This document shows, in pieces, positions 1 through 64,000 of a stretch of 64,000 bases of DNA. The position numbers and the translations under genes are program-made. Position 1 is the first letter of the stretch, and each line of letters starts with the position of its first letter. The DNA lies in the NCBI GenBank assembly GCA_026874595.1, contig CM049306.1:63678019-63742018 (forward strand), read 5' to 3'. The notes below the pieces were generated by a model. The model searched no databases. It was not told the origin of the DNA and saw nothing but the letters and a program-made list of their open reading frames with translations. The stretch is from Sipunculus nudus. Lineage: Eukaryota; Annelida; Sipuncula; Golfingiida; Sipunculidae.

Positions 1-152
1 ATAAAACTTTTGTCAATAGTGCTCAGGTGGAAGGACTCAATGGGGGGGGGGGGGGGATGGGAGTTACAACACCTTTGCATATACAAACAGTATAAGAAAT
101 TTAATTCAACAGTGCTTACAAGAAAACAGTATTCATAACTAGAAAATTCTCA
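1..152. other. Unclassified AT-rich edge with a poly-G run
   Basis: No gene or recognisable repeat end is seen. Positions 42-56 are 15 consecutive G, a run that could slip or form a quadruplex. The stretch ends where a family-D-like head begins. Confidence 0.5.
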
Positions 153-606
153 GCACCTGTGGTGCCGTAGTATCCCCAGATAATTAATCATCCCACCCTA
201 AAGAATAGGCCCCCCATCTTCAGCAGCATATACTGACAATTGGCAAGGGACCATGGTTACTTCCTTCTATCAACTTAAGAAACAATATTTTCACAAAATA
301 TGGGAGCCAATATGGGGACTCTTGAGAAAAGGGGATTAATTTATACTTTAACAAGGGACCAACAGGTTGTTATTTATGAACATAAAATATGATTTGGAAG
401 AAGGGGTGGACAATTTTGTGTGTGTGTGGAAATATAGGCTGATTTATGAGGATGATGGCATTTAACTCAAGATATTTAAAATCCTTGGTGAGGGAAGAAG
501 GCTGATGTCATTTATATTATTTACATTTGGAAAAGGAGTGCTATTATCATACAGGTTTTGACTTTGGCCTAATAACTTTATCTACATTGCAGCAGAAGTA
601 TTTGAA
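153..606 (+). repeat. Family-D head fragment plus AT-rich repeat remnant
   Basis: Positions 153-165 (GCACC-TGT-GGTGC) form a perfect 5-bp hairpin, followed by the subterminal sequence TATCCCCAGA at 171-180. The same head, as GGCACC-GCA-GGTGCC, occurs at 35989, 45749 and 55511. No family-D right end follows, so this copy is truncated. From about 360 the sequence matches 5480-5680 and 13390-13560, a separate AT-rich repeat that follows family-E heads. Confidence 0.6.
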
Positions 607-1188
607 ACTAAGGACCCATGGGTCTCGACGCTCTGCTGCATTTGTCCATAAGGATATATGTTTATGAGGTTTTCCAAAATATTGGTCCTGTCATCAGTTT
701 GAAGCCAACCTGTCAACCCAAACTGGAGTTATCATCCATTAACTAATTTTTGAATGGATGGGCCCTGTGACCTTTACCTTTGACCTAGTGACCCCAAAAT
801 CAAAAGGAAACTTTCCCATTGGCAGGTGCACCACATGTCCATGATGGAAGGATTGAGATGAAAAGTTTGGCTTAAAATGCATCCACAATCTTTCTTAAGT
901 AGTGGGTCCTGTGACCTTGACCTTTGATCTCATGAACCCAGAATCAACAGTTCTTACTTTAGTGGTGGGCCATATATAAGTCAAAATTGAAACCAATATG
1001 TCCATCCAAACTGGAGTTATCATCTGGAAACTAATATGTGGATAGGTGGCCACCATGACCTTGACCTTTGACCTTGTGACCCCAAAATCCTTAAGTTACT
1101 CCCACTATTGGCAGGTGAGCAACATCTGGAAGATAGAAGGTTTGGGACAGAAAGTTTGGCTAAAAATACATCAACAAACTTTTTAAAC
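607..1188 (+). repeat. Family-E repeat rich in AGGTCA hexamers
   Basis: It starts with a variant of the 12-bp palindrome GACCCATGGGTC (615-626). It then carries ~150-bp imperfect modules, each with a block related to TGACCTTGACCTTTGACC (about 767-787, 911-927 and 1056-1079) and a block like AAGTTTGAAACCAATATG. It is cut off at 1188 by the left end of a family-A element. No coding potential is apparent. Confidence 0.7.
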
Positions 1189-1619
1189 AAGGCCTACAGG
1201 CCTAATGCGAACCTGTGCATTGGGAAAAACACCAGGTATAATGCTTCAATGCTTGACCATTACTTTTCATGTATATGAACAATGCAAGTACTAAACATTT
1301 TGAATAATAAACAATTTCTCAAACATCACTGCTGAAATTCTGGCATGGGTGCACACAACACTAAAAAGATTGTAGCTGGCACCACCAGTCTTGTATACAA
1401 CGAAGCTATCAGAGATATAGACATATGCCCAATTTCAGACTGATATATCAAACCCCTCTTGAGAAAAACGCAGGGACACACACTGTGCTATAGTCATTGT
1501 AGGTGGCGACAACTATCTCGTGAGCGAGAAAGCCATCAAAGACACATAGACAGGTCAAAATATTAGGCCAATACATCAAATTTACCTTGAGTCTGTTGCA
1601 TGGGGCTGAACAGGCTTAG

Positions 1620-2230: not shown

Positions 2231-2344
2231 ACTGAAAGACTTTGGGTAAAATTTTTTTATTATTCATATTCATAAATTTTTTATCAAAATATCTAGAATA
2301 ATAAAAGATGACCAATGACCCCCGTACAAAAAAAGGTCAATGCA

Positions 2345-2356
2345 GGTGGCGCCACC
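2345..2356. repeat. GGTGGCGCCACC palindrome (first exact copy)
   Basis: This is a perfect 12-bp palindrome. Exact copies also start at 6201, 9768, 9919, 10033, 10180, 10582, 19197, 25619, 30400, 30547, 32211, 32489, 32620, 32769, 32900, 33180, 34179, 34328, 34887, 35529, 35658, 36998, 41321, 42049, 42196, 43889, 44644, 45289, 45418 and 46760, and at the equivalent sites of units 3 and 4. Copies with TG or CA at the central CG are also common (3686, 24801, 29393, 34457, 34606, 37886). Confidence 0.95.
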
Positions 2357-4160
2357 AATACCTGAATTTCATATATGACTCATGTGACCAACACTGGCAA
2401 AAAATTTGGTGATGATAGCTCCGGCCGTTTCTGAGACTGTCATTTCAGTATGCTTTTTTGGACAGATGACCAAGTTGAACTTCCTGTAACTCGGCCAAAA
2501 TTCCCCAAACTTGAACCATTGGAACAAAATTGAGGGAGATGGTATAAAAGATTATTTCTGTGAAATATTAAACAATTTGGCTTGAGTGTCTCGGAGGAGA
2601 AGGGTTTAAAGGTTTTTTTTGCTTTTTCTCTATAAAATTTAAGAAAATGCAGAGTTTTTGAGATGGCTAATTTTTTGCATTAAATTTCATTAGCTAGCTC
2701 CAATCATTTTCAAAACAGTATAGGTTATTGTACAGAGGACAAATGCCGCCACACCATCGCATTAGCTCACAGGTTCCCTAAAAATTATTACAGATGCATA
2801 TTGAATGCAAAATTGTAATACAGATACATCTCACTGATGGCAAATTCTTGAATTAGTTTGACTATGGATACCAATTATTTATAATCCATGTACAGCCGTC
2901 TATATATACCCATAGACAGCTGTATACCTGTGATTGTAAACATTGCCTGGCATGAGGAATATCTGAAAATCATAAATCTACATTTTTTAAAAAGCTTTTA
3001 TAAAACATTCTTGTCAATATTAACCACAGATAACCTGAAATCTAAATGTCTGGAGGCATGATGTAATAAATGCTGATAAACTGGTGCCAGTCTAGATGTA
3101 TCTGCTTCACATGGCTAACATATATGGTAAAATGACTCAATTCAATCTTTATAATTCAGCCAAAATTAATTCTTTGGAACCATAAAAGACAATTATTATA
3201 AGAAATTTTCAGGGGATTATTCTTGTAAAATATTAAACAAATTAGCCTCAGTAGCGTCAGTCAAAAAACGTTTTACAGGTTTATAACTCATATGGGAAAA
3301 TACAGCAAAATGGCTAAGTTAAGCTTCCCATAACTCAGCCAAAAATCACTGAACCAAAACCATTTGAACAAATTTGAATTATCAACATCTAAGGATAATT
3401 AATGTGTGAGATTTAAGAATTTGGCCCAGTGGTTTTTGAAGAGAAGATCTTTGTAGCCACTGAGCTAAAATGGGCTGTTACAGCATATGACTAAATTCAG
3501 CTTCCCATAACTCAGCCAAAAGTCACTGAACTGAGACCATTTGAACAAACTTCAGAAAGCACTACCCTAGGATCATTTCTGTGCAATATTAAACTATTTG
3601 GCAATACGGTATCAGAGAAGAAGTTATTTGTAGCCATCAGTATGATACAGGTACTGATGACCCCCGTACAAAAAAGGCCGATGCAGGTGGCACCACCAAT
3701 ACCTAAAATTCAGATATGTCTCATGTAAACAACATTGGCATAAAATTTGGTGATGATAGCTGTAGCCATTTCTGAGACTGTAATTTTAGTATGCTTTTTC
3801 GGACAGATGACTAAGTTCAACTTCCTGTAACTCGGCCAAAAATCACCGAACTTAAACCATTCGAACAAACTTGAGAAAGATTGTTCTAGGGATCATTTCT
3901 GTGAAATATTGGACAATTTGGCTGAACAGTTTCGGAGAAGAAGCTTTTTTAGCTTTTTCCCTATAAAATGTAAGAAAATGCAGTTAGCCAAAAAATAAGC
4001 AAAATTCAATATAGTTTTTTAGATGACTAATTTTTTGCATAAAATTTCGTGATGCTACCTCTTGCCATTTTCAATATAGTATGGGTTAACGTACAGACAA
4101 TGGACGGCGTACGACGGACGATGGCACACAATCGCATAAGCTTACAGGTTCGCTAAAAAC

Positions 4161-6060: not shown

Positions 6061-6523
6061 AAAACTATAATATTCACTTTGGAAATTTCAGATTCGTAGG
6101 TCCAACGGTTTCAAAACGTGGCAGTTTTACTGCCGGACAAAGGACTACAAGTATAGCTCATATGACTTATAGTCAGCTGAGCTAAAAAACAAAAAATACA
6201 GGTGGCGCCACCACTTATCGGGAACTGACAAAATTACTCAAGGTCAATATTCAAGGCAAGATTCATGACAATCCATGCATTAAAGATCAAGATATTGGAG
6301 GTTTTGAATCAAATTTTTTTATTATTTGGGGGGGTACCTTTAAGCCCCTAATTTCAGGTTTCCAGGGAGATTTTTTATTGACCTCCTTGATGTTCATTTA
6401 GAAGTTTTTAGGACCAGCAGTTACGATTTGTGCCCTGCTAACAGAAGGCCGGACAACCAGATGGACGACGGACAAAGCACCATTCCTTTACCTCAGTTGA
6501 CTTACAGTCAGCTGAGCTAAAAA
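6061..6523 (+). repeat. Two consecutive family-B tails
   Basis: The first tail ends at 6188 with AGTCAGCTGAGCTAAAAA. The second (6189-6523) begins at once with the palindrome at 6201-6212 and ends with the same signature. The core module AAGATTCATGACAATCCATG is at 6260-6279. This second copy is the uninterrupted counterpart of 7655-9089. Confidence 0.75.
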
Positions 6524-6654
6524 TAAATTACCACTATAAGTCATCTTAATTATCATGCTTTAACAAAGGAGTTAAGTGTTATTCAATAATTACAGGTTAC
6601 CTATACCCAAAAGTAGCACTAGCACAAATGATAAGAAAGTTAAACTGTTTATTA
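6524..6654. other. Unclassified AT-rich spacer
   Basis: I see no gene, hairpin or repeat end in this short interval between family-B and family-E sequence. Confidence 0.4.
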
Positions 6655-7750: not shown

Positions 7751-8828
7751 CCGTATTAATTCATATTTGGCGATCCCTCTTATTTCTCGACCCCAAAAAA
7801 TATTTTGAAAGCATAATTTCTAAAATGACTCTAATTCAACGACTGGCGACGATGTTTTCTGTTGACGATGTGAAGGTGAAATGCCTCCGTCTCTCATGGG
7901 CACCGCAGTTTGTATCTGACTAGATTCTTATTACACTGAGCATCCACATCAAACTTGTTTCCAATAAAATTTTTGAAGAAACAAAGATGCGTATATCATT
8001 ATTTAAAAACATGATAAAGCGTTCAAGATCCAAATGGGTGTCCGTGACGAAGCATGTGTACCATTCCTGGTATGCACGTGCCTTGTGTGCAATTCACGTT
8101 GGATCTTTAGCAATAATATTTACAAGGTACAGGAAAACAAGGGTGGTGGAACAACTGTTACACAGGTGGAACAGTCATCTTAGTTAAGTTTAAACAACCC
8201 CGGTTAGCTTTTCGATGGGTGACCGCGCGTACCAAACAGGGCCCGATCGAGGGCACGCGAGCTAGGACCATTTCCGGTCATATATATTTTAACGCGCTTT
8301 TACCTTCCTATATTCATTATGTATAATGCAAATAAAAGTTATCTGATAATAGGCAGTTATTTTTTATAAAGTCTTCTTCCAACTTGGTGCAGCTGCTTGT
8401 CCCTTTTCGGACTGCCTATATGGCCGCCTGGTGGGTTAACTTGAAACAACTGGTAGTTACATGAGTTGCTGTCTATGTCAAGTGACCGTACCTATATGTT
8501 GTGATCATTTGGTGAAGTGATTGAGCTCAGTTTGATTAATCATTTGCAGACTCTGTATAATTCATGTGACGGTTGGAAGCCCTTTTGTAGGAAATACTGT
8601 TAAGCAAACAAAACAAACTTATAAACGACCAAATTATCACTCAATTCATATGACCGCTCGAATGTCAGAGCGGCTCTGCATATCTACGGAAGGTTATCAA
8701 ACGGCATGCCAATAAAATCTCGACCACTGCAAATTCTGCAGGAAGATAATTTTCAAATATCCTCCATTATCTCGACCTCTGAGAAAATTAATTATTTTGA
8801 AGTGGTCGCCAAATTGGAATAAATAAGG
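7751..8828. mobile_element. Mariner/pogo-like non-autonomous DNA transposon
   Basis: Imperfect 23-bp terminal inverted repeats are seen: CCGTATTAATTCATATTTGG at the left, and at the right a sequence whose reverse complement begins CCTTATTTATTCCAATTTGG. Both continue to GCGA. The element is flanked by TA on each side (7749-7750, 8829-8830), and the related copy at 6274-6300 shows the empty site. TA duplications point to the Tc1/mariner superfamily. TCTCGACC motifs near both ends suggest a pogo/Tigger relative, which is tentative. Short open frames (7821-7923, 7987-8187) are not recognised as transposase. Confidence 0.75.
8202..8226 (+). other. 5S-rRNA-like internal promoter fragment (tentative)
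   Basis: GGTTAG, six bases, then GATGGGTGACCGC reproduces the sequence and spacing of the intermediate element and C-box of eukaryotic 5S rRNA (GGTTAG-N6-GATGGGAGACCGC). Upstream bases do not resemble the rest of 5S, so this could be a relic of a 5S-derived SINE captured by the transposon, or chance. Confidence 0.35.
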
Positions 8829-9089: not shown

Positions 9090-9419
9090 TGCTACTTTAC
9101 CACAACATGGCATCTTCAGGATTACTAAAGAAATGTTTTGTACATTGGAGTGGAAACAGATTTACAATTAAAGAAATACAGTCTGAAAAATAACAATCAT
9201 TGCAATTGCAATGTGAGTGGGCGGGGGGGGGAGGGGGGGGGGACATGAGAATAACTGTACACCTGGGACAGCAGGGCTGCTGGAGGTGCTTGGGGAGTTG
9301 ACATCAGAATAACTGCATCACCAATAAGGTTACCAAGGCAGGACTGTAGTGACCAGAATTGGCAGCCTGAAGATGCAAATGAATACTAAGGAGCCTCTGA
9401 AAGAATCTTCAATAACTAG
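9090..9419. other. Unclassified interval with poly-G tract
   Basis: It contains a G tract broken by one A at about 9223-9242 and otherwise mixed sequence with no recognised repeat end. An 81-codon frame running into it from 8948 crosses a family-B end, so I do not regard it as a gene. Confidence 0.4.
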
Positions 9420-10377
9420 AATACGGGTAGTCGACAAGCGACTACGTGTATCCGCCAAAATCAGAGAAGGACAGGTGAAGTGAGGTATGGATTGAGTGGC
9501 AAGGGGAAATAGAGTTACATGTGTTACATATTAGAATGGATCTCTGCCACATAAACATGATTGTAGTTGGCGCCACCTGTTATTTGAACAAGAAACTATC
9601 CAAGATGTATACGCATGCCAACTTTCAGGTAATTTGGTCAAACCACTGCAGAGATGAGTTCTTTAAACCAAAGGCAGACAAACAGATGGAGGCAGTGCGA
9701 AAATGGCTGCAGTTGGCACAGTTCCCAAGATATGAGCTTGGATGTCTGCAGAGTAAACATGAATGTAGGTGGCGCCACCTGTCATAAAAATTCGAGAAAG
9801 CTGTCCAGGATGTATAAACCTGCAAAATTTCAGGTGTTTAAGTCAAACCACTTCTGAGATATGAGTTATTTTATCCTAAGGCAGACAAACAGATGGACAC
9901 TGTGCATAAGTGGTTGCAGGTGGCGCCACCAGTTTTGCCTATGATAAAGAGATATGTGCAAAATTTTGACCCAATCGGTCAAACGGTTCCCGAGATATGA
10001 GCTTGGATGTCTGCAGAGTAAACCTGAATGAAGGTGGCGCCACCTGTCATAAAATCAAGAGAGCTGTCCAGGATGTATTAACCTGCAAAATTTCAGGTGG
10101 AAAATTCAAACCACTGCTGAGATGAGTGATTTTATCCCAAGGCAGATGAACAGATGGACGCCGTGCAAAAATGGTTGCAGGTGGCGCCACCATTTTTAGT
10201 GTTTGTTAAAAAGCTATCAAAGGGCTTCATTTGTGCAAAATTTTAGCCTGATCGGTCAAACAGTTCCCGTGATATGTGGGTTTATGTGTGGAAACAGATG
10301 CACTAATGGACACTGGGCAACAAGGAAAGGTCAGAGGTCAACCAAAAATGAAGGCGCAGCAGTTCACATGTGAACTG
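9420..10377 (+). mobile_element. Family-C element, right-truncated
   Basis: The left end is a perfect hairpin, GTAGTCG-ACAAG-CGACTAC (9427-9445), followed by GTATCCGC. Four exact palindromes start at 9768, 9919, 10033 and 10180, plus a GTTGGCGCCACC variant near 9567. Each is followed by the core module, for example GGTCAAACGGTTCCCGAGAT near 9980. The right-hand hairpin and GCGGATAC end seen in other copies are missing; family-A sequence follows. Confidence 0.8.
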
Positions 10378-15895: not shown

Positions 15896-16516
15896 ACTTA
15901 ATGATCAATATCCATGCAAAGAATCATGGTGATCTCTGCATTAGTTGTTCAGATACTTTAGCTTTAGTATCAAATTTTCCATTATTCTGAGGGATACTTC
16001 GGAGTCCTATAGCTTGAAGGATATGGTTAAGAGAGACCTAATTTCAGGTTTCCACAGACACTTTTTACGGGCCTTCTTGCATGACAAGAATGAAGATTCT
16101 AGGTCTTGTGTTACAATTTGTGTCACACTAACAGATGACAGCATCCTTAAAGGTCTCAAAAATAGAGAAAAAAATTCGAAAAATTGAATAAAATATAGAT
16201 GGCACCACCTGTCTGCAGAAACTGATGAAACACTCCATAATCAATATCCATGCAAAGAATCATGATAATCTCTGCATTGGTTGTTCAGATACTTCAGCTT
16301 TTATATAAATTGTCCATTATTCTAAGGGATACTTCAGAGTCCTATAGCTTGAAGGATATGGGTAACAGAGACCTAATTTCAGGTTTCCATGGAGACTTTT
16401 CATGGGTCTCCCAGTGTGTCAAGAATGAAAATTCTAGGTCCAGTTGTTATGTTTGTGCCCTGTTAACAGATGTTCACATTTTCAAAGGTCTCAAAAATAG
16501 AGAAAATAATTCATAA
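15896..16516 (+). repeat. Tandem pair of ~300-bp core modules
   Basis: Units at 15896-16195 and 16196-16516 share CCATGCAAAGAATCATG, GGATACTTC and the CCTAATTTCAGGTTTCCA block. A decayed palindrome, GATGGCACCACC, begins the second unit (16198 on). A family-A left end interrupts the sequence at 16517. Confidence 0.65.
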
Positions 16517-18129: not shown

Positions 18130-18564
18130 TTAACTGGTGTAGGTACTCTGAAAAGCACTAATACTATCCGTATATTTCTCTGGTGCAACAGGATACACAT
18201 ATCGGTTAAAGAAAACCTCAGATGACTTCCAGCGCCCTATTTGCATCGCACTTTCAGGTTGGATGCCACACTGTATAGCTACTGTTGCCCCAGTAGCCCT
18301 AAAACATCTTGGCATAAACCCATGTCCACCTAAACCGGCTAACTCGATAGACCTTTTCAGAATACATGCAATAGCGTCCGCCTTCAGAGCTGAGTAAGGA
18401 GCCCTAAGAGAAAGAAAAACTGCATTGGTTTCCCCTTGTACACATAAATGAGCAGTCCTGGCCAAATATTCTCGGAGAAATTTCTCAGGATCAATAGTCA
18501 TATTGGAATTACATGGTACGCGTACTTCAAACCCAGTTCTAGATATGTCATTTTTTATACCAAA
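18130..18564 (-). pseudogene. Ngaro tyrosine recombinase, C-terminal part
   Basis: This is the catalytic C-terminal half of the recombinase. It starts just after the nested insertion, with GIKND...SRTGFEV, and runs to a stop at 18130. Visible motifs are RCFRATGA, the second catalytic arginine region with R where the usual His of HxxR sits; GRWKS, the W/H position; and FFNRYVYP, with the probable nucleophilic tyrosine. In an intact element this enzyme would integrate the circular DNA intermediate. It is separated from its N-terminal part (20384-21054) by a family-F element, so it cannot be expressed as a whole. It has no start codon of its own; the first internal ATG is at 18501. The family assignment is firm. 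Confidence 0.9.
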
Positions 18565-18904
18565 GACTAGATGTGTCGGAACGACACAAATGCCCCCGCC
18601 TGGGGCAAATTAGAAACATTTGTTAAATTTTGTAAAATTTTTTAAGTTCAGGAAGTGTTTTATGGTCAAAAGTAGGTCAACAAGGGCAAAATGCAAACTT
18701 GATCTGTAAAGGGTCATTATCAAGCAACACTCCAAAAATCAGGCCAGTATCTGCAGGCATTGTGAAAAAAAGTCCATATATGTGCATTTTTCATGAAAAT
18801 TTCTGTCTTTAACTGGGACGAAACGCGAACTCGATCTGTAAGTGGTCATTATGCGCCCACAGACCTAACATTAGGCCAGTATCTGTAAGCATTGTATAAG
18901 CAAA

Positions 18905-19567
18905 AGTTGATAATCATTTATAAATTTAAATTGGAGAGGCATATAATATGTTTCATAACAATCCACCAAATGCTTCCTGAGAAATAAGCTCCTAAGTTTT
19001 TTTCTATACTAAGCTCTGTGACCTTGAAAAGTAGGTCAAGATCACCCATCTTTGAACTTGACCAAGATTTTGTAAATATAATGCAATAGCACTGAAGAAA
19101 TGAAGTTCCTGTGTTGAATACCTTTGGAGATATCCTGCACAAAAGGCCAAAATTGAAAAAATCCGATAAAATTTCATTAAAAAATCAGAAATTGCAGGTG
19201 GCGCCACCAAAATTTTGCAGCACATACAGACCATCAGTCCCAATGATCATAGTAAGTTTTGTGAAAATCCACACAATGGTTCCTGAGATATAAACTTCTG
19301 AGTGTTTTTCTATAATCAGCTATAAAATGTAGAAAAATGGGTCAAGGTCACCCATCTTCGAACTTGACCGAGATTTTATCGATATACATCTTCACTGATG
19401 AAATAAAATTCCAACAGTGAATCCTTTTAGAGATATCCCGCTCACAAGGTAAAAGTTAACAGACGCGGAACGGACGGACGGACGGACGGACACCAGACAG
19501 ACAGATGGACAGACGGACAGCTTGGGTGACGAAAATAGCCCATCAGCCTATGAGCTGAGGGCTAAAA
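18905..19567 (+). repeat. Fragment of another element inside family F
   Basis: Two core modules (TTCATAACAATCCACC near 18953; TTTTGTGAAAATCCACACAA near 19256) flank the palindrome at 19197-19208. An ACGG/ACAG microsatellite lies at 19469-19525. The segment ends GAGCTGAGGGCTAAAAA (19551-19567), close to the family-B right end, so it may be a further nested, truncated element. Confidence 0.55.
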
Positions 19568-19573
19568 ATGGCT

Positions 19574-20293
19574 GTACATGTGTATTTGTCATGAAAATTT
19601 CTATTTTTCATGGATATTTCTAAGTTTAGGAGCCGTAAAACGGTCAAAAGTAGGTCAACCGAAACGAAACGCAAACTTGATCTGTAACTGGTCATTATCT
19701 GCCCACACACCAAAAATCAGGCCAATATCTGCAGGCATTGCGAAAAAAAGTCCGTACATGTGTATTTGTCATGAAAATTTCTATTTTTTATGAAATTTTC
19801 TAAGTTTAGGAGCCGTAAAACGGTCAAAAGTAGGTCAACCGGGAAGAAACGCGAACTCGATCTGTAACTGGTCATTATCTGCCCACACACCAAAAATCAG
19901 GTCAATATCTGCAGGCATTGCGAAAAAAAAGTCCGTACATGTGTATTTGTCATGAAAATTTCTATTTTTCATGAAATTTTCTAAGATTAGGAGCCGTAAA
20001 ACGGTCAAAAGTAGGTCAACCGGGACGAAACGCAAACTCGATCTGTAATTGGTCATTATCTGCCCACATACCAAAAATCAGGCCAATATCTGCAGGCATT
20101 GCGAAAAAAAGTCCGTACATGTGTATTTGTCATGAAAATTTCTATTTTTCATGAAATTTTCTAAGTTTAGGAGCCGTAAAACGGTCAAAAGTAGGTCAAC
20201 CGGGAAGAAACGCGAACTCGATCTGTAACTGGTCATTATCTGCCCACACACCAAAAATCAGGCCAATATCTGCAGGCATTGCGAAAAAAAGTC
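19574..20293 (+). repeat. Four tandem ~180-bp repeats
   Basis: Units start at 19574, 19754, 19935 and 20115 with GTACATGTGTATTTGTCATG (the fourth continues to 20293). Periods are 180, 181 and 180. Each contains GGTCAAAAGTAGGTCAACC and ATCTGCAGGCATTGCG. Units differ by few bases, so the expansion is recent compared with the diverged copies at 18610-18905. GGAATGAC is repeated three times just downstream (20312-20337). Confidence 0.93.
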
Positions 20294-20383
20294 CGTACAA
20301 CTGTTTGATTTCGGAATGACGGAATGACGGAATGACGGACATGGGTAAAACTATATGCCCCGGCCACTTTGTGGCGGGGGCAT

Positions 20384-21054
20384 AAAAACAACTGACAATG
20401 AACCATCACCATGAAATCTGATTTGATCTCTGTTGAACAATAACTTAGCAGTATGGCCATTCACACAGTCAAAAGCTGTACTCCTAGGTGCCAGATCCGA
20501 CGGCCGGGTCATGAATGTCAAAGCTAATAATGCGATACATTTTAGTCTTAACATGTCTAAAGATAAACTCTCATTGTTCCCCCAGGACTGGAACAACTCA
20601 TAATATGCTTCAACTGGCATAGGTTTGGTATGACGCAAGGGCCTCTTTGTACCCGACTTAACTAACGAAGTCAGCATTTTCTTAACATTACCATCTGACA
20701 TTGGATTTTTGTGGCCTAAACTCTCATACAAACATCTTAAAGCTGCAGATGTCATCTTAAGGGCCGATTCTGGCCTGCCAGAACTGTCACTACTCTACAA
20801 AGGTAATCTACAATAATAGCAGGATTGTCCTTGGGTGGAAACTGTACATTCATGTATGAACAAAAATCCTGAAACTTCCTGCAAATTCTACTATAATGGT
20901 TGAAAGTTGACGGAGCCCAACACAACAAAAACTGACTGCTAGCCCTATCTGACCAACCAAGAGATTTCAATTTTTTGTGCCACAAATCCGCCAGGCAAAG
21001 AGCTTCCACCTTGGGTTCCGTAGAGGTTCCAGTATCGAGCCTAGGCTTAAACAC
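20384..21054 (-). pseudogene. Ngaro tyrosine recombinase, N-terminal part
   Basis: This part holds the core-binding domain and the start of the catalytic domain. Two overlapping reading frames are needed. The first (21054-20752) contains WAPSTFNHYSRICRKFQDFC, a typical DNA-binding N-domain segment. The second (from about 20770) continues with SALKMTSAALRCLYESLG, so a one-base frameshift lies near 20770. TFMTRPSDLAPRS supplies the first catalytic arginine. The frame then enters the family-F element after SLSVVF, where the last 11 codons before the stop at 20351 are insert sequence. The continuation of the enzyme is at 18130-18564. The copy is plainly inactive. Confidence 0.9.
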
Positions 21055-21829
21055 GTGTTTTGTTCATTGGGAATTCTGACAGGTGGCGCCACGGACATTT
21101 GCTGAAGACGGTAGAACCATGGTTGTGCTGGCCACCAAGGTGCTATAATTGTGGCTGTGGCCCTCTGTGCTACTATGACGTCGAGTATTTGACCGATTAG
21201 TCTGAAAGGGGGGTTCACATAATTGTTGTGCTCCATCCAATTCAGTTGCGCCAAGCAGTCTACTCCTGATGTTTCTGGGTCCCAAAACAGACTGTTGTAT
21301 TTTTGGCCCTGTCTGGAAAGCAATGAAGCACAACGATCCATCGTGTGTGGTCCCCACAGTTGATCGAGGTAACAAAAGAGGTTGGGATTTAACATCCAAT
21401 CGTGATGTGATATTAAGCGGGACAACCTGTCTGCGTGTGTGTTCAATTTTCCTGGGAGATATTTCACCACAAGTGTCACATTTAAATCTATGATAAGCCT
21501 CCAAATAGCTGTTGCAATCTGTGTGAGCTCCACACTCTGTCCGCCTTGAAAATTTATATATGCTGCTGTGGTTATATTGTCCGTGAGCAACTGAACTATT
21601 TGTCCTTTACCTGAGATGCAAAAGAATGGAGCGTGAGGAGAACCGCCATCATCTCTCTTACATTGGAGGATTTTAAAGAAAGTCGTTGGTTCCACAACCC
21701 TCTGGCTTCCTGGTTTTGTAAAACTCTGCCCCATGCTACTGAAGATGCAACCGTCATGACTTGTAGGTCGATGTTTTTGTGAGGGGGGGCACAGCCGTTC
21801 CATGAAGATAATGAAAAATACCACCACTC
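20967..21829 (-). pseudogene. Ngaro RNase H domain region
   Basis: This would degrade the RNA strand of the replication hybrid. The region follows RT in the same frame after an in-frame TAA (21830-21832). WWYFSLSSWNGCAPP and the RGLW/SSNVRE block are read in that frame down to a stop near 21600. The rest, LLTDNITTAAYINFQGG and HADRLSR, which are characteristic RNase H motifs of the family, is in another frame, so there is a frameshift near 21600. The segment that normally reads SDAS...GWG appears as TVASSVAWG, so a catalytic aspartate seems lost. The C-terminal connector (PWWPAQPWFYRL) leads into the recombinase. Confidence 0.85.
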
Positions 21830-22861
21830 TTAGTCACTAAAAGTCCCTTTGTCTAATGTCAAACAATCTTGCCACGAGCGACGTGAACGGAATGTTCTAT
21901 ATAGATTTCTTAGTAATAATTTTGCTGGCAAAATTGCTTGGGCCATTGAAATACACTGGCCAGCAATTCTAGCTAGACAGCGAGCTGTAGCATGTCCTTT
22001 GTTTAACACCAATTTGATATCATGTTGCAGCTTGGAAATCCGCCGTTTGGGGATTCGAATCCACACCTCGTTTTCAACACAAGTATCAAATACATAACCA
22101 ATATATTCCTTGGAATATGAGGGTTCTAAACAAGATTTCTCAAAATTAACCTGAACACCTAAACTAAGTAAAGTATCTAACAACAATGACTTGTGATGTT
22201 CAATCTCAGATTCATTAGCTGCCAAAATAAAATCATCAACAAACAATGATAGACGAAGGCCCTGAGTACGTAAATAGGCCACTATTGGTCTCAGAGTCTT
22301 GCAAAAGTAAAATGGTGAGGCAGATAACCCAAAAACTAATTTCAAGTACCTGAATACACAACCCTTGAACATGAAACATAAAAAATGTTGTGATTTTTCT
22401 GCAACTGGTATATGGTGAAATCCATCTTTTATATCAATGGTAACCAATTTATCATTAGGCTGAACCACATTCAAAACATCATTAATATCATCATATCTGA
22501 ATTTGTCAATCTGACAACAGGAATTCACATGTCTTAAATCAAGCACCAGTCTATATTTTCCATTCTTTTTTGGTACACAATTTATGGGAGACACTCCCAA
22601 AACATGATATGTGTTATCACATCAAGCAATAATACCATTATCAAGTAATCTGTTAATTTCTTCCTCCAGAAAAGCAATCTCTTTATCACTGAAATGTCTG
22701 TTCTTGAAAACAAACTTATCAGGAGTGGTCACAAAGGGAATCTCTACTCCATCTTTTATCCAATTTAACACATGGAATGGTGCACCGATTTTATTCCACT
22801 CACTCAAACAAAGATGCATCACATTGTCTGTCTTTGTATATAGTTCAGTTATATAATCCAA
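21830..22861 (-). pseudogene. Ngaro reverse transcriptase domain
   Basis: This would copy the element RNA into DNA in an intact element. The frame opens at 22861. It carries EWNKIGAPFHVLNWI and VEIPF, the family's pre-RT region, and meets an in-frame TGA at 22622-22624. It then continues in the same frame with the palm motifs RLVLDLRHVN, DIKDGFHHI, FGLSASPF and the active-site box LFVDDFIL (FVDD near 22230-22243). Motifs appear in the correct order and with normal spacing. The RT frame stops at 21830 just before the RNase H region. The domain is well preserved apart from the two nonsense codons, which suggests a moderately recent death. Confidence 0.93.
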
Positions 22862-22916
22862 CTAATCAACATTGTGAAGCCAGACATGGGCTAAAAAACA
22901 AAAGAAAAACACCTGA

Positions 22917-23780
22917 TCAGGGATTCTCTTGTTGGAAACGATTTGGCGGAACAGGAGACCTTGCTCCTGAAAAGCGTGGAGACTGAAAGCGCTGGAACCC
23001 ATCTGCACGTTGCTGGAATGGGAAGGCTCGGCCTCTGCCTCGTGGGTAATAACGGTTGCCTCCATATGTAAATGTACTGCCTGTATTACCTTGGGTCTGT
23101 TGACGCCTAGACACTTCTGTGATCTCAGCTGCAGTCCGAATATTTTTCAGTGCACTATCACTAAACAGACCAGAATTTTGTTCGGGTGTACTGAACAGTT
23201 GAGCAGTTTCAATATCAAACGCACCTTTTACAACCAGTTTTGCATATGCAGATTGCAGGTAATTCATGTGAGCATATAGTATAATATACAACTGTCCTAA
23301 ATCATCACCAGTGATAGTATTGATATCTTGTGTTGCCAGCCATTTAAGTGTTGTTTCTGTGTACCGTGCACTTTTAGACACAACTGCTGCCACTGCCTGG
23401 TCTGGTTTTTTAATTCCTGACTAGGATTTGTCATGTAACTTAAGCTCATTCAAGAGTTTTACGTGTTGGAGTGCAGAACATAAAGTCTCATACTCCTGCT
23501 GAAGGGTAGCTACGCCAGCCACATGTGTACTGGTTGTGGTAACGGGACTACTCTGACCTCTGGTGCTATTGCACGTTGTCGTTAAGACTGATGTCGAAAC
23601 TGGGCTCCTCAAGGTGCTAATGTTACTTACAGTGACAGTTTCAGGAGCACTGCCGCTTGTGGAGACTTTTGGACCACCATGGCCTTCGATGACAGTAAGT
23701 CGAGAGTGAATGTCTTTGATTTGGTCACTTAGAATTCCAAAGTTTGTTAGCAATTTATCAATTTTTTCCTCTGCCATCAC
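22917..23780 (-). pseudogene. Ngaro gag-like ORF
   Basis: This is the nucleic-acid-binding first ORF. It starts with ATG codons at 23775-23780, with the initiation region inside repeat A1. About 119 residues, including an N-terminal predicted coiled coil and a Ser/Thr-rich linker, precede an in-frame TAG (23421-23423). A further 158 residues follow in the same frame. SARYTETTLKWLA and LYIILYAHMNYLQSAYAKLV match the conserved gag core of Ngaro elements as I know it. The C-terminus (RGRGRAFPFQQRADGFQRF) is arginine/glycine rich, typical for RNA binding. Only one nonsense codon is seen. Confidence 0.85.
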
Positions 23781-30397: not shown

Positions 30398-30870
30398 CTG
30401 GTGGCGCCACCTGAAACCATTTATGCACAGCGTCCGTCTTTTTGTCTGCCGTGGGATAAAATCACTCATCTCTGCACTGGTTTGACTTATCTGCCTAAAA
30501 TTTTGAAGGTTTATACATCTTGGACAGCTTTCTGGATTTTGTGGCAGGTGGCGCCACCTACATTTATGTTTATGCTGCAGACATCCAGGCTTATATCTCG
30601 GGAACCGTTTGACCGATTGGGCCAAAATTATGCATGTGTATAGTTCTCTCATAGCTCTTTATCATACACAAAACTGGTGGCTCCACCTGCAACCTTTTTG
30701 CACAGGGTCCGTCTGTTTGTCTGCCATGGGGTAAAATCACTCATATCTCAGCAGTGGTTTGACTTTTTGCATTTGTATACAACTTTGATAGCTTTCTGGA
30801 TTTCGTGATAGGTGGCACAACCTACATACACATTTCGGCTGCAGACATACATGCTAATATGCAACTGGAA
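30398..30870 (-). repeat. Inverted family-C modules in unit 1
   Basis: Exact palindromes at 30400 and 30547 and decayed ones near 30674 (GGTGGCTCCACC) and 30811 are set in the reverse complement of family-C sequence (e.g. CGGGAACCGTTTGACCGATT). Neither family-C end is present. The block faces the forward family-C elements 1 kb downstream. Confidence 0.8.
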
Positions 30871-31811: not shown

Positions 31812-33669
31812 GAATACGGGTAGCCAACAAGCGACTACGTGTATCCGCAAAATTAAGAGTGGGGCAGGTGCAGTGAGGCACGGATTGAGTGGCAAGGGGA
31901 AATAGAGTGAGGTGTGTTGCATATTAGCATGGATGTCTGCACCACCAATTTAGTGTATGATTAACAGCTATGTTTGATCTATACACATGAAAAATATTAG
32001 GGGGATATGTCAAACAAGTCCTGAGATAAAAGCCTGAATGTCTGCAGCTTAAACATAAATATAGGTGGTGCCACCTGCCACAAAATCCAGAAAGCTGTCC
32101 AAGATGCATAAACCTGCAAAATTTTAGGCAGATAAGTCAAACCACTGCAGAGATGAACGATTTTATCCCAAGGTAGACAAACAGACGGATGCTGTGCATA
32201 AATGGTGGCAGGTGGCGCCACCAGTTTTGCCTATGATGAAGAGCTATGTGAGATCTATAAACATGCAAAACTTTGGCCCAATCGGTCAAATGGTTCCCAA
32301 GATATGAGCTTGGATGTCTGCTGCATAAACTAGAATGCAGGTGGCTCCACCTGTAATTAAATCAAGAGAGCTGTCGGGGATGTATAAACCTGCAAAATTT
32401 TAGCCAGATATGTCAAACTACTGCCGAGATATGAGTGATTTTATCCCATGACAGACAGACAGACAGGAGCTGTGCAAAAATGGCTGCAGGTGGCGCCACC
32501 AGTTTTGCTTATGTTATAAAGCTCTCCAAGGGCTACATTTGTGCAAAAAAAATTTTCCTGATCGGTCAAACGGTTCCCGAGATATGAGCTTGGATGTCTG
32601 CAGCGTAAACGTTAATGTAGGTGGCGCCACCTGTCATAAAATCAGAAAAGCTATCCAGGATGTATACGCATGCCAAATTTCAGGTGAATTAGTCAAGTCA
32701 CTGCAGAGATATGAGTGATTTTAACCCAAGGCAGACAAACAGATGGACACTGTGCAAACATGGTTGCAGGTGGCGCCACCATTTTTTGTGTATGTTATAA
32801 CGCTCTCCAAGGGCTACATTTGTGCAAAAAAATTTTCCTGATTGGTCAAACGGTTCCTGAGATATGAGCTTGGATGTCTGCAGCGTAAACGTGAATGTAG
32901 GTGGCGCCACCTGTCACAAAATCAGAAAAGCTATCCAGGATGTATACTCATGCCAAATTTCAGGTGAATTAGTCAAGTCACTGCAGAGATATGAGTGATT
33001 TTAACCCAAGGCAGACGAACAGATGGACACTGTGCAAACATGGTTGCAGGTGGCGCCACTATTTTTTGTGTATGTTATAAAGCTCTCCAAGGGCTACATT
33101 TGTGCAAAAAAATTTTCCTGATCGGTCAAACGGTTCCCGAGATATGAGCTTGGATGTCTGCAGCGTAAACGTGAATGTAGGTGGCGCCACCTGTCACAAA
33201 ATCAGAAAAGCTATCCAGGATGTATACGCATGCCAAATTTCAGGTGAATTAGTCAAGTCACTGCAGAGATATGAGTGATTTTAACCCAAGAAAGACGAAC
33301 AGATGGACACTGTGCAAACATGGTTGCAAGTGGCGCCACCATTTTTGTGTATGTTATAAAGCTCTCCAAGGGCTACATTTGTGCAAAAAAATTTTCCTGA
33401 TCGGTCAAACGGTTCCCGAGATATGTGGGTTTATGTGTGGAAACAGACGCACAAACGGACACAGAGCGCAGAGGAAAGGTCAGAGGTCAAAACAAAATCG
33501 GGGCGCAGCAGTTCACATGTGACCCGAACATAATCCTGGGTTTCGTAAAATTCCACCCAGCGGTTACGGAGCAGTTCTCCGGAAACCTACGCGGCGGCGG
33601 CGGCGGCGGCGGCAGCAGCGTGCAGCTGAAAACATAGTATCCGCAAAACTCTGTTTTGGCGGATACAAT
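31812..33669 (+). mobile_element. Family-C element, first of a tandem pair in unit 1
   Basis: The left end GAATACGGGTAGCC...GCGACTACGTGTATCCGC is followed by an array of palindrome modules. Near the right end come a GGC run (33591-33613) and the hairpin GTATCCGC...GCGGATAC (33639-33666) followed by AAT. Palindromes at 32489, 32620, 32769, 32900, 33049 (variant) and 33180 alternate at 131 and 149 bp, i.e. a 280-bp dimer. Confidence 0.88.
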
Positions 33670-33756: not shown

Positions 33757-35207
33757 GAATACGGGTAGTGGACAAGCGACTACGTGTATCCGCCTATATC
33801 AGAGTGGAACGGGTGAAGTGAGGCATGGATTAAGTGGCAAGGGGAAATAGAGTGAAGTGTTGCATATTAGCATGGATGTCTGCAGCCAAATTGTGTATGA
33901 AGGTTGCCCCCCCACCACAAAATCCAGAAAGTCTTCCAAGTTGTATACATATGCAAAATTTAAGGCAGATAAGTCAAACCACTACATGTATATGAGTGAT
34001 TTTAGCCCATGGCAGACAATGAGATGGACGCTGAGCAAAAATGGTTGCAGGTGGCGGCACCAGTTTTGAGTATGATAAAGAGCTATGTGAGAACTATACA
34101 CATGCAAAACTTTGGCCCAATCGGTCAAACGGTTCCCAAGATATGAGCTTGGATGTCTGCTGGATAAACTAGAATGCAGGTGGCGCCACCTGTCATAAAA
34201 TCAAGAGAGCTGTCGGGGATGTATAAACCTGCAAAATTTTAGCCAGATATGTCGAACCACTGCCGAGATATGAGTGATTTTATCCCATGGCAGACAAACA
34301 GACAAGAGCTGTGCAAAAATAGCTGCAGGTGGCGCCACCAGTTTTGCGTATGATAAAGAGCTATGTGAGATCTATACACATGCAAAATTTTGGCCCAATC
34401 GGTCAAACGGTTCCCGAGATATGAGCTTGGATGTCTGCAGCGTAAACGTGAATGTAGGTGGTGCCACCTGTCATAAAATCAGAAAAGCTATCCAGGATGT
34501 ATACGCATGCCGAATTTCAGGTGAATTAGTCAAGTCACTGCAGAGATATGAGTGATTTTAACCTAAGGCAGACAAACAGATGGACACTGTGCAAACATGG
34601 TTGCAGGTGGTGCCACCATTTTTTGTGTATGTTATAAAGCTCTCCAAGGGCTACATTTGTGCAAAAAAATTTTCCTGATCAGTCAAACGGTTCTCGAGAT
34701 ATGAGCTTGGATGTCTGCAGCGTAAACGTGAATGTAGGAGGCGCCACCTGTCACAAAATCAGAAAAGCTATCCAGGATGTATACGCATGCCAAATTTCAG
34801 GTGAATTAGTCAAGTCACTGCAGAGAGATGAGTGATTTTAACCCAAGGCAGACGAACAGATGGACACTGTGCAAACATGGTTGCAGGTGGCGCCACCATT
34901 TTTTGTGTATGTTATAAAGCTCTCCAAGGGCTACATTTGTGCAAAAAATTTTCCTGATCCGTCAAACGGTTCCCGAGATATGTGGGTTTATTTGTGGAAA
35001 CAGACGCACAAACGGACGCAGAGTGCAGAGGAAAGGTCAGAGGTCAAAACAAAATCGGGGCACAGCAGTTCACATGTTACCCGAACATAATCCCGGGTTC
35101 GTAAAATTCCGCCTAGCGGTTACGGAGGAGTTCTCCGGAAACCTACACGGCGGCGGCGTGCAGCTGAAAACATAGTATCCGCAAAACTCTGTTTTGGCGG
35201 ATACAAT
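33757..35207 (+). mobile_element. Family-C element, second of the tandem pair
   Basis: The head is GAATACGGGTAGTGGACAAGCGACTAC, with the left hairpin partly broken by TGG. It has palindromes at 34179, 34328 and 34887 and variants at 34457, 34606 and 34737. A short GGC run (35149-35157) precedes the right hairpin, which ends GGATACAAT. Confidence 0.88.
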
Positions 35208-35475: not shown

Positions 35476-35988
35476 CTATTCTTATAAAACTGTAAGAACC
35501 AGATGGACACTGTGCAAAAATGATTGCAGGTGGCGCCACCAGATTTGCGTATGATAAAGAGCTATGTGAGATCTATTAACATGCAAAATTTTTGCCCAAT
35601 CGGTCAAATGGTTCCTGAGATATGAGCTTGGATATCTGGAGCGTAACTTGAAATGTAGGTGGCGCCACCTGTCATGAATCAAGAAAGCTGTCCAGGATGT
35701 ATAAACCTGCAAAATTCAGGTGGATAAGTCAAACCACTGCCGAGATATGAGTGATTTTATCCCAAGGCAGATAAATAGATGGACACTGTGCAAAAATGGT
35801 TACAGTTGGCGCCACTATTTTTAGTGTATGTTATAAAGCTATCCAAGGGCTGCATTTGTGCAAAATGTTTAGCCTTGAATGGTCATACGGTTCCCGAGAT
35901 ATGTGGGTTTATGTGTGGGAACAGAAGCACAAATGGACGCTGGGCAGAGAGGAAAGATCAGAGGTCAACCAAAAACTAGACATTTCTT
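35476..35988 (+). repeat. Further family-C modules, ends missing
   Basis: Exact palindromes lie at 35529 and 35658, with a GTTGGCGCCACT variant near 35806. Core modules follow each. Neither terminal hairpin is present. It runs into the family-D left hairpin. Confidence 0.75.
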
Positions 35989-37333
35989 GGCACCGCAGGT
36001 GCCAGAGTATCCCCAGACATAGTACGCCCCCCCCCCCCTTTACGAATAGGCCCCCATTTTCAGCAGCATATACTGACACTTGGCAAGCAATTATTGTTTC
36101 TTCCATCTATCAATCCACAATCTTTTTGAAGATGTTGGTCCTGTGACCTTGACCTTTTGGCACATCACAAGGCTATCCAAGATCTTCTGTCACCTTCATT
36201 TTGGGACCAATCCTTCTGAACAATCTTGAGATATTTAAAAGTTTTTGTAATTTTCAGCTGAAATGGACCTATTCAAGGTCAAGGTCACTCTCTTAGCCTC
36301 CTGTGACCTTGACCTTTGACCTCATGACCCCAAAATCAATTTGGGTCTTGCTTTTCCAATGGGACATATACAAGTCAAGTTTGAAATCCATACATCAATA
36401 AAAGCAGGAATTATCATCCAGAAACTAATTTTTGGACAGATGGCTCCTCTGACCTTCACCTTTAACCTTGTGACCTAAAAATTGATAGGGGTCTGCCACT
36501 CTTGGTATGTGAACTATATGTGCAAAATGAAAGATCCAAAAATTGATATGGATCATCCTTTATTGGCAAGTGAGCTATATATATTCAAGATGGAAGACCT
36601 GGGAGAAAGTTTGGCTTAAAATGCATCCACAGTATCTTTTAAGATGCGAGTCCAGTGACCTTGACCTTTAACCTCATGACCCTAGAACCTATAGGGTTCT
36701 TACTTTAGTGGTGGGCCATACATAAGTCACGTTTGAAATCCATATGGCTATCAACACTGGAGATATCATAAGAGGTGTGTGATTTTCACCAAATATGGAC
36801 ACATTAAAGGTCAAAGCCACTTTCATGGTACAGGTCATGACCCAAATGTAAATAGACCTCATCCCATAACCCATCTCTCTACATGTGCATAATATGAAAG
36901 AAATCTGTCCATTAGATTTTGACTTATAATGCTTACAGTATTGTCAAGTGGCAATTATTGGGGTATTAAAAGGCGTAAAAACAAGAAAAGGATAATAGGT
37001 GGCGCCACCATTTTCTGGTATATCACAAGGCTATCCAAGATCTTTGGTCACCTTGATTTTTGGACCAGTCCATGCAAGCTTACTTGAGATATTTAAGAAT
37101 ATGTGTTATTTTCAGCAAAAATGGACCTATTTCAAGGTCAAGGTCACTCTCCTGGCATAGGTCATGACCCCATTTTAAATAGGCTTCGTCCCCTTACCTT
37201 TATCTATACAAATGTAAAGTTTAAAAAAGATCAGTAAAATATTTTTTGAGTTATCCCGCTCACAAGGTTTTTCTGCGGCGGCGGCGGGTCTGTCGTGAAG
37301 CCATAGTATCCCGACTTTGTCTGGGGATATAAT
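35989..37333 (+). mobile_element. Family-D element (complete) in unit 1
   Basis: Left hairpin GGCACC-GCA-GGTGCC (35989-36003). Perfect 12-bp subterminal inverted repeats TATCCCCAGACA (36008-36019) and TGTCTGGGGATA (37318-37329). A CGG run lies near 37276-37287. The palindrome is at 36998. AGGTCA hexamers are abundant in both orientations. This is the clearest complete member of the hairpin/subterminal-repeat architecture; copies lie at 45749-47095 and 55511-56857. Confidence 0.88.
36275..36316. repeat. 14-bp inverted repeat made of AGGTCA hexamers
   Basis: AAGGTCAAGGTCAC (36275-36288) and GTGACCTTGACCTT (36303-36316) are perfect reverse complements with a 14-base loop. Copies occur at 46037-46078 and 55799-55840. 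Each arm contains TCAAGGTCA, the extended half-site bound by monomeric nuclear receptors (family knowledge). Confidence 0.9.
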
Positions 37334-60800: not shown

Positions 60801-63800
60801 TATGATACAGGCACTGATGACCCCCGTACAAAAAAGGACGATGCAGGTGGCGCCACCAATACCTCAATTTCAGACATGTCTCATGTGAACAACATTGGCA
60901 TAAAATATGGTGATGATAGCTCCAGCCGTTTCTGAGATTATAATTTTAGTATGCTTTTATGGACAGATAACTAAGTTCAACTTCCTCTAACTTGGCCAAA
61001 AATCACCGAACTTGAACCATTCGAACAAATTTGAGAAAGATTATCCAAGGAATCATTTCTGTGAAATATTGGACAATTTGGCTGAACAGTTTTGGAGAAG
61101 AAGATTTTTAAAGCTTTTTTAGCTTTTTCCCTATAAAATCTAAGAAAATGCAGTTAGCCAAAAAAAAAGCAATATCCGATATAGTTTTTTAGATGACTAA
61201 TTTTTTGCATAAAATTTCGTGATGCTACCTCTTGCTGTTTTCAAGATAGTATGGGTTAACGTAGAGACGACAGACGACGGAAAACGGCCGACGGACGCCG
61301 GACGATGCCACACCATCGCATAAGCTCACAGGTTTGCTAAAAATCGTGGTTTTTCCTTAATTTCTCAAAGGAACGAAGTCGCAAAGACCCAGTTTTCGGC
61401 CTGGTAGGAGATCTTAGGGACATCTAACATTATGCCGAATTTTGGATTCCTAGTTCTTACGGTTTCAAAACGTGCATCATCTACGGACGGACGGACGGAC
61501 AGACAGACGGACGATGGACAATGGACCACGACTATAGCTCAGATGACTTATAGTCTGCTGAGCTAAAAAACTGGTGGCGCCACCTGAAACCATTTATGCA
61601 CAGCGTCCGTCTTTTTGTCTGCCGTGGGATAAAATCACTCATCTCTGCACTGGTTTGACTTATCTGCCTAAAATTTTGAAGGTTTATACATCTTGGACAG
61701 CTTTCTGGATTTTGTGGCAGGTGGCGCCGACTACATATATGTTTATGCTGCAGACATCCAGGCTTATATCTCGGGAACCGTTTGACCGATTGGGCCAAAA
61801 TTATGCATGTGTATAGTTCTCTCATAGCTCTTTATCATACACAAAACTGGTGGCTCCACCTGCAACCTTTTTGCACAGGGTCCGTCTGTTTGTCTGCCAT
61901 GGGGTAAAATCACTCATATCTCAGCAGTGGTTTGACTTTTTACGTTTGTATACAACTTTGATAGCTTTCTGGATTTTGTGATAGGTGGCACAACCTACAT
62001 ACACATTTCGGCTGCAGACATACATGCTAATATGCAACTGGAATTAATAGTCAATTTTACACCTGTGAAGTTTTTACTCTTCTGAAGTAAGGAATTACTT
62101 ATCTGATGAACATCCACACTTTCATAGCAATACAACACTTTGTGGACACAATTAAATGTGCACTAAAATCATTGTAACCCTGGTGGTAAAATCTAAAATG
62201 TAGCATAGCCTAGAATAAGAATGAATCACATACAGAAAATTATAACATTCATCTAGTTTTTGCACTAGGGGGGGTGCAGGGCATAGGGGTAGCCTGCTGG
62301 TAGTGGCCAAGCTGAGCCAAGGGAAGCTGCCTGGAGAGGGTTACATAACACAAGTGAAGGCTGTACTACTAGGTGGACTTAATGTAAACAACACTTGACA
62401 TGGTGTATAAAAACTTGAATAAAAGCTTCTCTTTTCGATCAATTCCTTTGAAATTTCAGATTTTAAAAGATTAAATCCTTATGTATATAAGCTGTGAAAA
62501 TTAAATCAACAGTGCTTACAGGGAAAAAACCTGCCATAGCCAAAGTTGGACAAAATTTAAGGTATTGATTTTTTATTTATGCTAATGACTTAAAAAATTT
62601 GCAAAATTCAGATCTAATTTTGGGTAAAAAATTGAATCTTGATTAAATAAAGTTATATCCCTAAAAAAAGTCTACAGCTTCAGCAATTCTCATGTTATGT
62701 GAGTAAATATATTTCCTGAATCTTAAAAAATGGCATTATATTTGGGCCTATGACTTCAAAACAATAAGCAATACTGACCTAATTTTGGTATGTTCAACGA
62801 AAATGTATGGAAGAATATGAATACTTAATATGATTAAACAAGGCCTACAGGCCAAATGCGAACCTGTGCAAAGGTTGGAAGTATGAATGGAGGTTTATTT
62901 TCAAAATTTAATATTGATATTCTTATGTGCTGCATATCTACCTTAGTCATTATGATTTCAGCAAAATGGACGTTTCGGACCTGCAAGTTTCAGACTAGGA
63001 CATTTTAAAAGTAGAATACGGGTAGCCAACAAGCGACTACGTGTATCCGCAAAATTAAGAGTGGGGCAGGTGCAGTGAGGCACGGATTGAGTGGCAAGGG
63101 GAAATAGAGTGAGGTGTGTTGCATATTAGCATGGATGTCTGCACCACCAATTTAGTGTATGATTAACAGCTATGTTTGATCTATACACATGAAAAATATT
63201 AGGGGGATATGTCAAACAAGTCCTGAGATAAAAGCCTGAATGTCTGCAGCTTAAACATAAATGTAGGTGGTGCCACCTGCCACAAAATCCAGAAAGCTGT
63301 CCAAGATGCATAAACCTGCAAAATTTTAGGCAGATAAGTCAAACCACTGCAGAGATGAACGATTTTATCCCAAGGTAGACAAACAGATGGATGCTGTGCA
63401 TAAATGGTGGCAGGTGGCGCCACCAGTTTTGCCTATGATGAAGAGCTATGTGAGATCTATAAACATGCAAAACTTTGGCCCAATCGGTCAAATGGTTCCC
63501 AAGATATGAGCTTGGATGTCTGCTGCATAAACTAGAATGCAGGTGGCTCCACCTGTAATTAAATCAAGAGAGCTGTCGGGGATGTATAAACCTGCAAAAT
63601 TTTAGCCAGATATGTCAAACTACTGCCGAGATATGAGTGATTTTATCCCATGACAGACAGACAGACAGGAGCTGTGCAAAAATGGCTGCAGGTTCCCGAG
63701 ATATGAGCTTGGATGTCTGCAGCGTAAACGTGAATGTAGGTGGTGCCACCTGTCATAAAATCAGAAAAGCTATCCAGGATGTATACGCATGCCGAATTTC

Positions 63801-64000
63801 AGATGAATTAGTCAAGTCACTGCAGAGATATGAGTGATTTTAACCCAAGGCAGACAAACAGATGGACACTGTGCAAACATGGTTGCAGGTGGTGCCACCA
63901 TTTTTTGTGTATGTTATAAAGCTCTCCAAGGGCTACATTTGTGCAAAAAAATTTTCCTGATCAGTCAAACGGTTCTCGAGATATGAGCTTGGATGTCTGC
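57896..64000 (+). repeat. Array unit 4 (cut by window end)
   Basis: Contains family A 57896-61343, B/inverted-C/B 61344-63013, and the start of family C from 63014. It shares unit-3 markers but keeps GCAGGTTCCC and CAGACAAACAG, so it is not a simple copy of unit 3. The array continues beyond the window. Confidence 0.95.

Follow-up and report, generated by a model that had tools for sequence, protein, structure and literature searches.

We analyzed a 64,000-nucleotide window of the Sipunculus nudus genome (C1:63678019-63742018; the genome comprises 1.4265 Gb in 153 contigs), in which HINE-like elements, that is, elements resembling non-autonomous Helentrons (HINEs), share an internal module built of the 12-bp palindrome GGTGGCGCCACC and a downstream core. 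In the orientation of the window, the module consisted of an A-rich stretch, the palindrome, a spacer of fixed length with loosely kept letters, and the core, in which an AAATTT-like motif was followed by GAT, a GGTCAAAC-like motif, GGTTC, and GAGATA; the elements themselves are read on the minus strand. On the plus strand, type C modules were found at 2315 to 2441 (palindrome 2345-2356, core 2398-2440) and at 3656 to 3782 (palindrome 3686-3697 with one mismatch, core 3739-3781), with the C right end, GCTAAAAA, at ~4159. A type D module lay at 6171 to 6297 (palindrome 6201-6212, core 6254-6296), with the D-type terminus GAGCTAAAA just upstream of its palindrome (6179-6187). Further plus-strand modules were of type A2, its spacer shortened by a 15-bp deletion (9889-9999; palindrome 9919-9930, core 9957-9999), type F, within ~335-bp repeats (16168-16294; palindrome 16198-16209 with two mismatches, core 16251-16293), type G (19167-19293; palindrome 19197-19208, core 19250-19292), and type H (36968-37094; palindrome 36998-37009, core 37051-37093). 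Six of the seven places named in a sequence-only reading of the window carried a palindrome with 0 to 2 mismatches 26 to 41 bp before the core start (palindrome/core starts 2345/2398, 6201/6254, 9919/9957, 16198/16251, 19197/19250, and 36998/37051). The seventh, near 18950, contained a core (18944-18986, plus strand, inside a G element) but no palindrome within three mismatches.

In an A array at 32019 to 33669 on the plus strand, A1 alternated with A2 or A3 in a ~280-bp dimer (32019-33425 by TRF), and the array was followed by the hairpin of the true 5' end up to 33669. A second plus-strand array with a ~278-bp dimer extended from 33864 to 34982. A-type modules in the opposite orientation were found at 30400 to 30822 (minus strand), the first palindrome of which (30400-30411) directly adjoins a D-type terminus. 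The true 3' end of an A element lay at 9415 to 9455 on the minus strand, reading ACTAG... on the plus strand, with a stem-loop and a subterminal repeat. The A2 consensus also contained AGATCT (32211-32339 and other A2 modules). AGATCT is the BglII site, and its presence would fit kinship with the phBglII400 clam satellite.

Allowing up to three mismatches, we counted 110 palindromes in the window, where 7.3 were expected and the largest count in 100 shuffles was 15. The exact string was counted 111,729 times in the genome (1.43 Gb) and the reversed string 14 times. The palindrome was followed 30 to 60 bp on by GGTCAAAC at 942 + 900 places (control, 0) and 50 to 80 bp on by GGTTCCNGAGATA at 8,176 + 8,424 places (control, 0). 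Genome-wide counts of repeat families are lower bounds. Pattern searches also gave 4 matches in viral contigs and 36 in prokaryotic contigs; none of these was similar to the window or the fetched loci at E 1e-4, and they were taken as chance.

Ten repeat-type consensuses (A1, A2, A3, B, C, C2, D, F, G, and H) were assigned to five groups, namely, A/B, C, D/F, G, and H. The D and F units are both ~336 bp long and alike over their full length when read by eye, so they form one group; A and B were handled as one. The sharing claimed earlier for five families A, B, C, D, and F was found, but those families do not make five separate groups. Because the spacer came out shortened in the first B consensus (3 copies), B was represented by the copy at 1375 in the identity, folding, and profile tests; the C2 consensus was built on 2 copies. 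Block identities were calculated from 19 between-group pairs, with A1, A3, and B excluded because their spacing differs. Upstream of the palindrome, identity between groups was 0.27 at -60 to -31 (chance, 0.27), 0.35 at -30 to -21 (0.26), and 0.44 at -20 to -1 (0.37). The palindrome itself reached 0.94 (chance, 0.34), a value that leans high because the consensus copies were partly chosen by palindrome. Downstream, identity was 0.36 at +1 to +20 (0.28), 0.42 at +21 to +40 (0.26), 0.42 and 0.56 in the core at +41 to +57 and +58 to +82 (0.27 and 0.26), 0.34 at +83 to +110 (0.30), and 0.26 at +111 to +145 (0.25). Offset 0 gave the best match in 15 of the 19 pairs and shared first place in 1, whereas another offset was better in 3. 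Palindrome and core therefore form a single module common to the five groups, with limits at about -30 and about +85 relative to the palindrome; outside it the groups look unrelated, and beyond -30 and +110 identity is at chance level. The module had been described as following the palindrome; the core does so, but the common piece already starts ~30 bp before it.

Motif discovery recovered the core without position information. In the 110 bp after the palindrome of A2, C, D, G, and H, the core was found at one offset in five of five consensuses with 36.2 bits, whereas 80 shuffles searched with equal effort yielded 28.5 +/- 0.6 bits (maximum, 29.8). An earlier run had also given 36.2 bits, but the real set had then been given more starts than the shuffles, and it was rerun with even effort. 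A second set (A1, C, F, G, and H) scored 32.7 bits against an 80-shuffle maximum of 30.7. In a third (B, C2, F, G, and H), the score of 30.5 bits equaled the 80-shuffle maximum of 30.5, and the sites recovered were not the core. In addition, profiles built without the group under test scored highest at the expected offset in 10 of 10 consensuses, with single-position P values of at most 3.2e-5 in nine of them and 2.2e-3 in C2. These results bear out the shared palindrome-plus-core module and the expectation that its profile would exceed shuffled sequence in the main groups; the core stands out plainly in the main groups but weakly in B and C2. In positions 1 to 44170, a core profile exceeded 14 bits at 69 positions on the plus strand and 4 on the minus strand, compared with 0.1 per strand in shuffles; because this profile was partly built from window copies, the left-out-group profiles are the cross-validated test. 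Of these 73 matches, 27 had no palindrome 20 to 60 bp upstream. Core-like stretches free of the palindrome were seen within elements at 4038, 10941, 18944, 19708, 24705, 36193, and 37213, and every 180-bp repeat in the G element likewise contained one. Within the module, the core may be the older and more general part.

Palindrome and core were equally far apart in 7 of the 10 consensuses; the distance was 2 bp shorter in A1 and B and 2 bp longer in A3. Among 26 A copies in the window we counted 13 indel events against 202 substitutions, with 9 copies altered in length, and at this ratio a rough estimate gives about two spacer indels expected per lineage at the observed divergence. Because indels do occur among A copies, a constant spacer length is unexpected, which is suggestive of constraint. 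A reading frame in the spacer seems unlikely in view of the 2-bp shifts seen in A1, A3, and B.

Decay within families was measured in D, C, and F, using the 27 copies with the best scores from each; the D query contained the D-type hairpin and favors copies with such a hairpin. Non-CpG divergence in the palindrome was 0.015 in D, 0.015 in C, and 0.027 in F, and the corresponding values for spacer and core were 0.019 and 0.019 in D, 0.033 and 0.024 in C, and 0.017 and 0.019 in F. The consensus palindrome was intact in 22, 19, and 19 of the 27 copies, respectively. These copies, selected for the palindrome only through the query, have the same consensus palindrome, with F (GGTGGCACCACC) one step off. 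Selection on the palindrome in single copies thus left no sign in the 27 copies each of D, C, and F. Since copies decay evenly in these families, conservation lies in the source elements. The suggestion that the module is held by function therefore fails for single copies, and core and flank change at one rate inside D, C, and F; between groups they do not, the palindrome standing at 0.94 against 0.36 to 0.42 in the next 40 bp, with the distance kept despite the indels among A copies.

The carriers of the module were then characterized by their ends. Fetched copies had sharp borders, and A, D, G, and H begin with ACTAG in window orientation. Subterminal inverted repeats on the minus strand measured 14 bp in A, 16 bp in H (1 mismatch), and 11 bp in G (1 mismatch), the G score merely equaling the best of 60 shuffles. 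Stem-loops of 7 bp in A, 7 bp in H, 6 bp in G, and 5 bp in D were located near the 3' end, starting 7 to 26 nt from the border. For A, G, and D, the two ends were read from different copies. Central repeats were 180 bp long in G, ~280-bp dimers in A, and ~335 bp in F, and ACGG-like microsatellites were read in D and G. Judged by sequence, the A, G, and H carriers look like HINEs, because their subterminal inverted repeats, stem-loops, and CTAGT ends agree with the HINE architecture, which comprises subterminal inverted repeats, a 3' stem-loop, a microsatellite, a T-rich target, and no coding capacity in the available part of one account (PMC4067079). The ends, previously held to be unrelated, share this architecture in A, G, and H, but their letters differ.

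Two such elements had both ends in the window. The composite G element extended from 18566 to 20388 on the minus strand, with ends read from the sequence as ACTAGATGTG... on the left and ...GCATAAAAA on the right, and its G module, microsatellite, and hairpin sit between 180-bp repeats. The H element occupied 35975 to 37333 on the minus strand, with both ends, a 16-bp subterminal repeat (1 mismatch), and a stem-loop. A minus-strand retroelement was found at 20351 to 23393, in which an open reading frame (ORF) at 21830 to 22600 matched reverse transcriptase PF00078 (E 1.7e-18); four ORFs near it, one at 18130 to 18501, had no Pfam match, and the G element lies between these ORFs. From 34409 to 64000, a unit of ~9.76 kb recurs in tandem with 99.6 to 99.8% identity, and the repetition continues beyond the window end. 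In the genome, H copies followed at steps of 9,762, 9,762, and 9,765 bp, reflecting this unit, either as an array or as an assembly effect. The G and H elements also contained CAAGGTCAAGGTCAC-like stretches (19340-19353, ~36274-36289, and ~37132-37147); TCAAGGTCA is a nuclear-receptor half-site extension of the ERR/FTZ-F1 type, and the likeness may be chance.

The module was repeatedly found beside ends of other elements. Intact palindromes had the D-type terminus GAGCTAAAA no more than 25 bp upstream at 723 + 626 places in the genome (1,349), compared with 26 + 21 (47) at 100 to 125 bp upstream and 5 + 0 within 25 bp downstream, both control windows being unmatched for A-tracts. Among the 100 places listed, the 50 that remained after one amplified junction was set aside represented 44 distinct junctions; by letters, these 50 places were D/F-like (31), C-like (8), GGTA-type (5), A-type (4), and other (2), the four of A type being a single place copied along with the 9.76-kb repeat. 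Six loci of the dominant chimera were fetched and showed 94 to 98% identity over ~1.5 kb across the junction, which in four loci extended along the whole 2.2 kb, so the nested chimera has multiplied as a unit. At loci L156-L158 and L153, successive element-end hairpins and palindromes were seen at ~1000 to 1520 within one amplified composite, and L154 and L155 diverge from the other chimera copies at ~1500, where an end-exchange series could be dated. At locus L015, a G element had inserted into the A-run that precedes the palindrome of another G module; G copies adjoined A-runs in window orientation, and the copy at L012 lay within an A-run of a C element when read by eye. Because termini adjoin palindromes and the chimera has multiplied, nesting joins the module to new ends. 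The plus-strand excess of cores in 1 to 44170 would result from nesting in one orientation; genome-wide, the strands are even. The idea of swapping between terminal modules is thus upheld as a process, in that one terminus stands beside several module types, 44 distinct junctions exist, and a chimera has multiplied. The old families themselves may have arisen by swapping or by plain descent.

We consider it probable, with some reserve, that this is an internal module of HINE-like elements, old by descent and joined to new ends through nesting, whose palindrome is kept in source elements. That the module of HINE-like elements is real is clear. An old module would have been inherited by descent, HINEs would have inserted into the A-rich stretch that it carries, and the nest would then have moved as one, giving the module new ends. 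Less surely, the palindrome may be bound by a protein with two-fold symmetry that belongs either to the transposition machinery or to the host, so that palindrome and spacing would be kept in source elements.

Several observations count against this explanation. Half of the 100 listed places, out of 1,349, are one amplified junction and its near variants. In D, C, and F, the copies with the best scores showed 3 indels against 310 substitutions; although such a selection disfavors indels, this weakens the spacing argument. HINE-like ends were recognized in three of the families (A, G, and H), and D had no detectable subterminal repeat. Of 143 Rep-domain (Helitron-like) matches in the genome, the two loci examined, in pieces, contained neither palindrome nor microsatellite, and their match to the family loci was limited to short repeats; no autonomous partner was found in these two. 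We know of no protein that binds the palindrome, and the A-rich stretch alone may account for the insertions.

This last point leads to a reading that is possible but that we doubt as a full explanation, in which target preference alone operates: HINEs enter T-rich DNA, an A-rich stretch precedes the palindrome, and the palindrome is a conserved bystander. T-rich and TT preferences are described for oyster HINEs (PMC7492417) and for HINEs generally (PMC4067079) in the portions of these sources available, and many junctions lie 12 to 25 bp from the palindrome, inside A-tracts. This preference, with the module's A-rich stretch as its target, is the plainest account of the junctions, but it leaves the 0.94 between-group identity of the palindrome unexplained. 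Because the controls were unmatched for A-tracts, target preference and a role of the palindrome are so far inseparable. Plain descent, which we regard as rather unlikely, would start from one ancestral tandem-repeat HINE whose ends diverged with autonomous partners while the module changed slowest, with end exchange a minor matter. Module and ends do share one orientation in families with known ends, as oyster HINE repeats and flanks likewise do in the accessible part of PMC7492417, and weak spacer similarity persists between groups; the multiplied chimera and the 44 further distinct junctions nevertheless show that modules gain new neighbors. It is unlikely, though worth stating, that the palindrome acts as a docking station, on which a dimeric protein would guide the transposition complex into the adjoining A-rich stretch, so that nesting in one orientation would exchange ends and termini would turn over while the module persisted. 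A structured RNA or SINE-like central domain common to families with different heads and tails is very improbable: a folded RNA could well keep its length while its letters vary, but the window contained neither a tRNA gene nor an Rfam match that reached the gathering score, folding of the ten consensuses gave mean z scores of +0.14 and -0.44 on the two strands, the alignment fold paired the palindrome with itself only, and the A, G, and H ends are HINE-like. Finally, a chance likeness of cores in AT-rich sequence, to which the little signal from B and C2 alone would lend some color, is refuted for the main groups and next to inconceivable overall, since 0 of 80 shuffles attained the five-main-group score and the offset is the same in five groups.

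An internal module of HINE-like elements carried to new ends can be compared with several known systems, each described here from the part of its source that was available. Cg_HINE of Crassostrea gigas (PMC7492417) likewise has Helentron-type ends, a microsatellite, central tandem repeats of ~140 to 180 bp, T-rich sites, and a fixed repeat orientation, and one of its families retains just two motifs of otherwise diverged monomers. There, related flanks may carry unrelated repeats, whereas here different ends carry one module with a 12-bp palindrome; no monomer-internal palindrome is named in that portion. Palindrome-bearing bivalve repeats that are related have already been published (PMC5139131). 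Among them, the phBglII400 clam satellite also has a 12-bp palindrome in an internally repeated monomer, at which 13 of 16 junctions to other DNA occur, and in the Donax element DTC84 a conserved palindrome lies close to the repeat junction. phBglII400 (U80936) and DTC84 resemble our module by description and may be the same thing, but no shared core at a fixed distance is described for them in that part of PMC5139131. The BIV160, Cg170, and pearl (CvA) bivalve repeats resemble the present ones as diverged monomers of ~160 to 170 bp that retain two short motifs in satellites and elements (PMC5139131). The sole comparison with BIV160, an 11-bp piece of its published primer, gave no match in the window or the fetched loci. 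DINE-1 and arthropod HINEs are similar in subterminal inverted repeats, 3' stem-loop, microsatellite, T-rich target, and lack of coding capacity, and the Drosophila core sequence is a different thing from this module (PMC4067079). A review covers Helitron loci that are nested or shuffled, as well as the palindromes that these repeats contain (PMC12628747). In the open literature, the letters of the palindrome were not found, which is weak evidence because sequences seldom appear in text; in the portions of it available, no palindrome-plus-core module common to HINE families was found, and this too is weak evidence.

Helentron families are classed by their ends in the accessible part of PMC4067079, whereas here the ends vary and an internal piece persists. 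If the proposed explanation is true, it would give a concrete and testable account of how ends change in non-autonomous families and of why motifs recur in both bivalve satellites and elements of this kind. The palindrome could also serve directly as bait for the protein that may maintain it.

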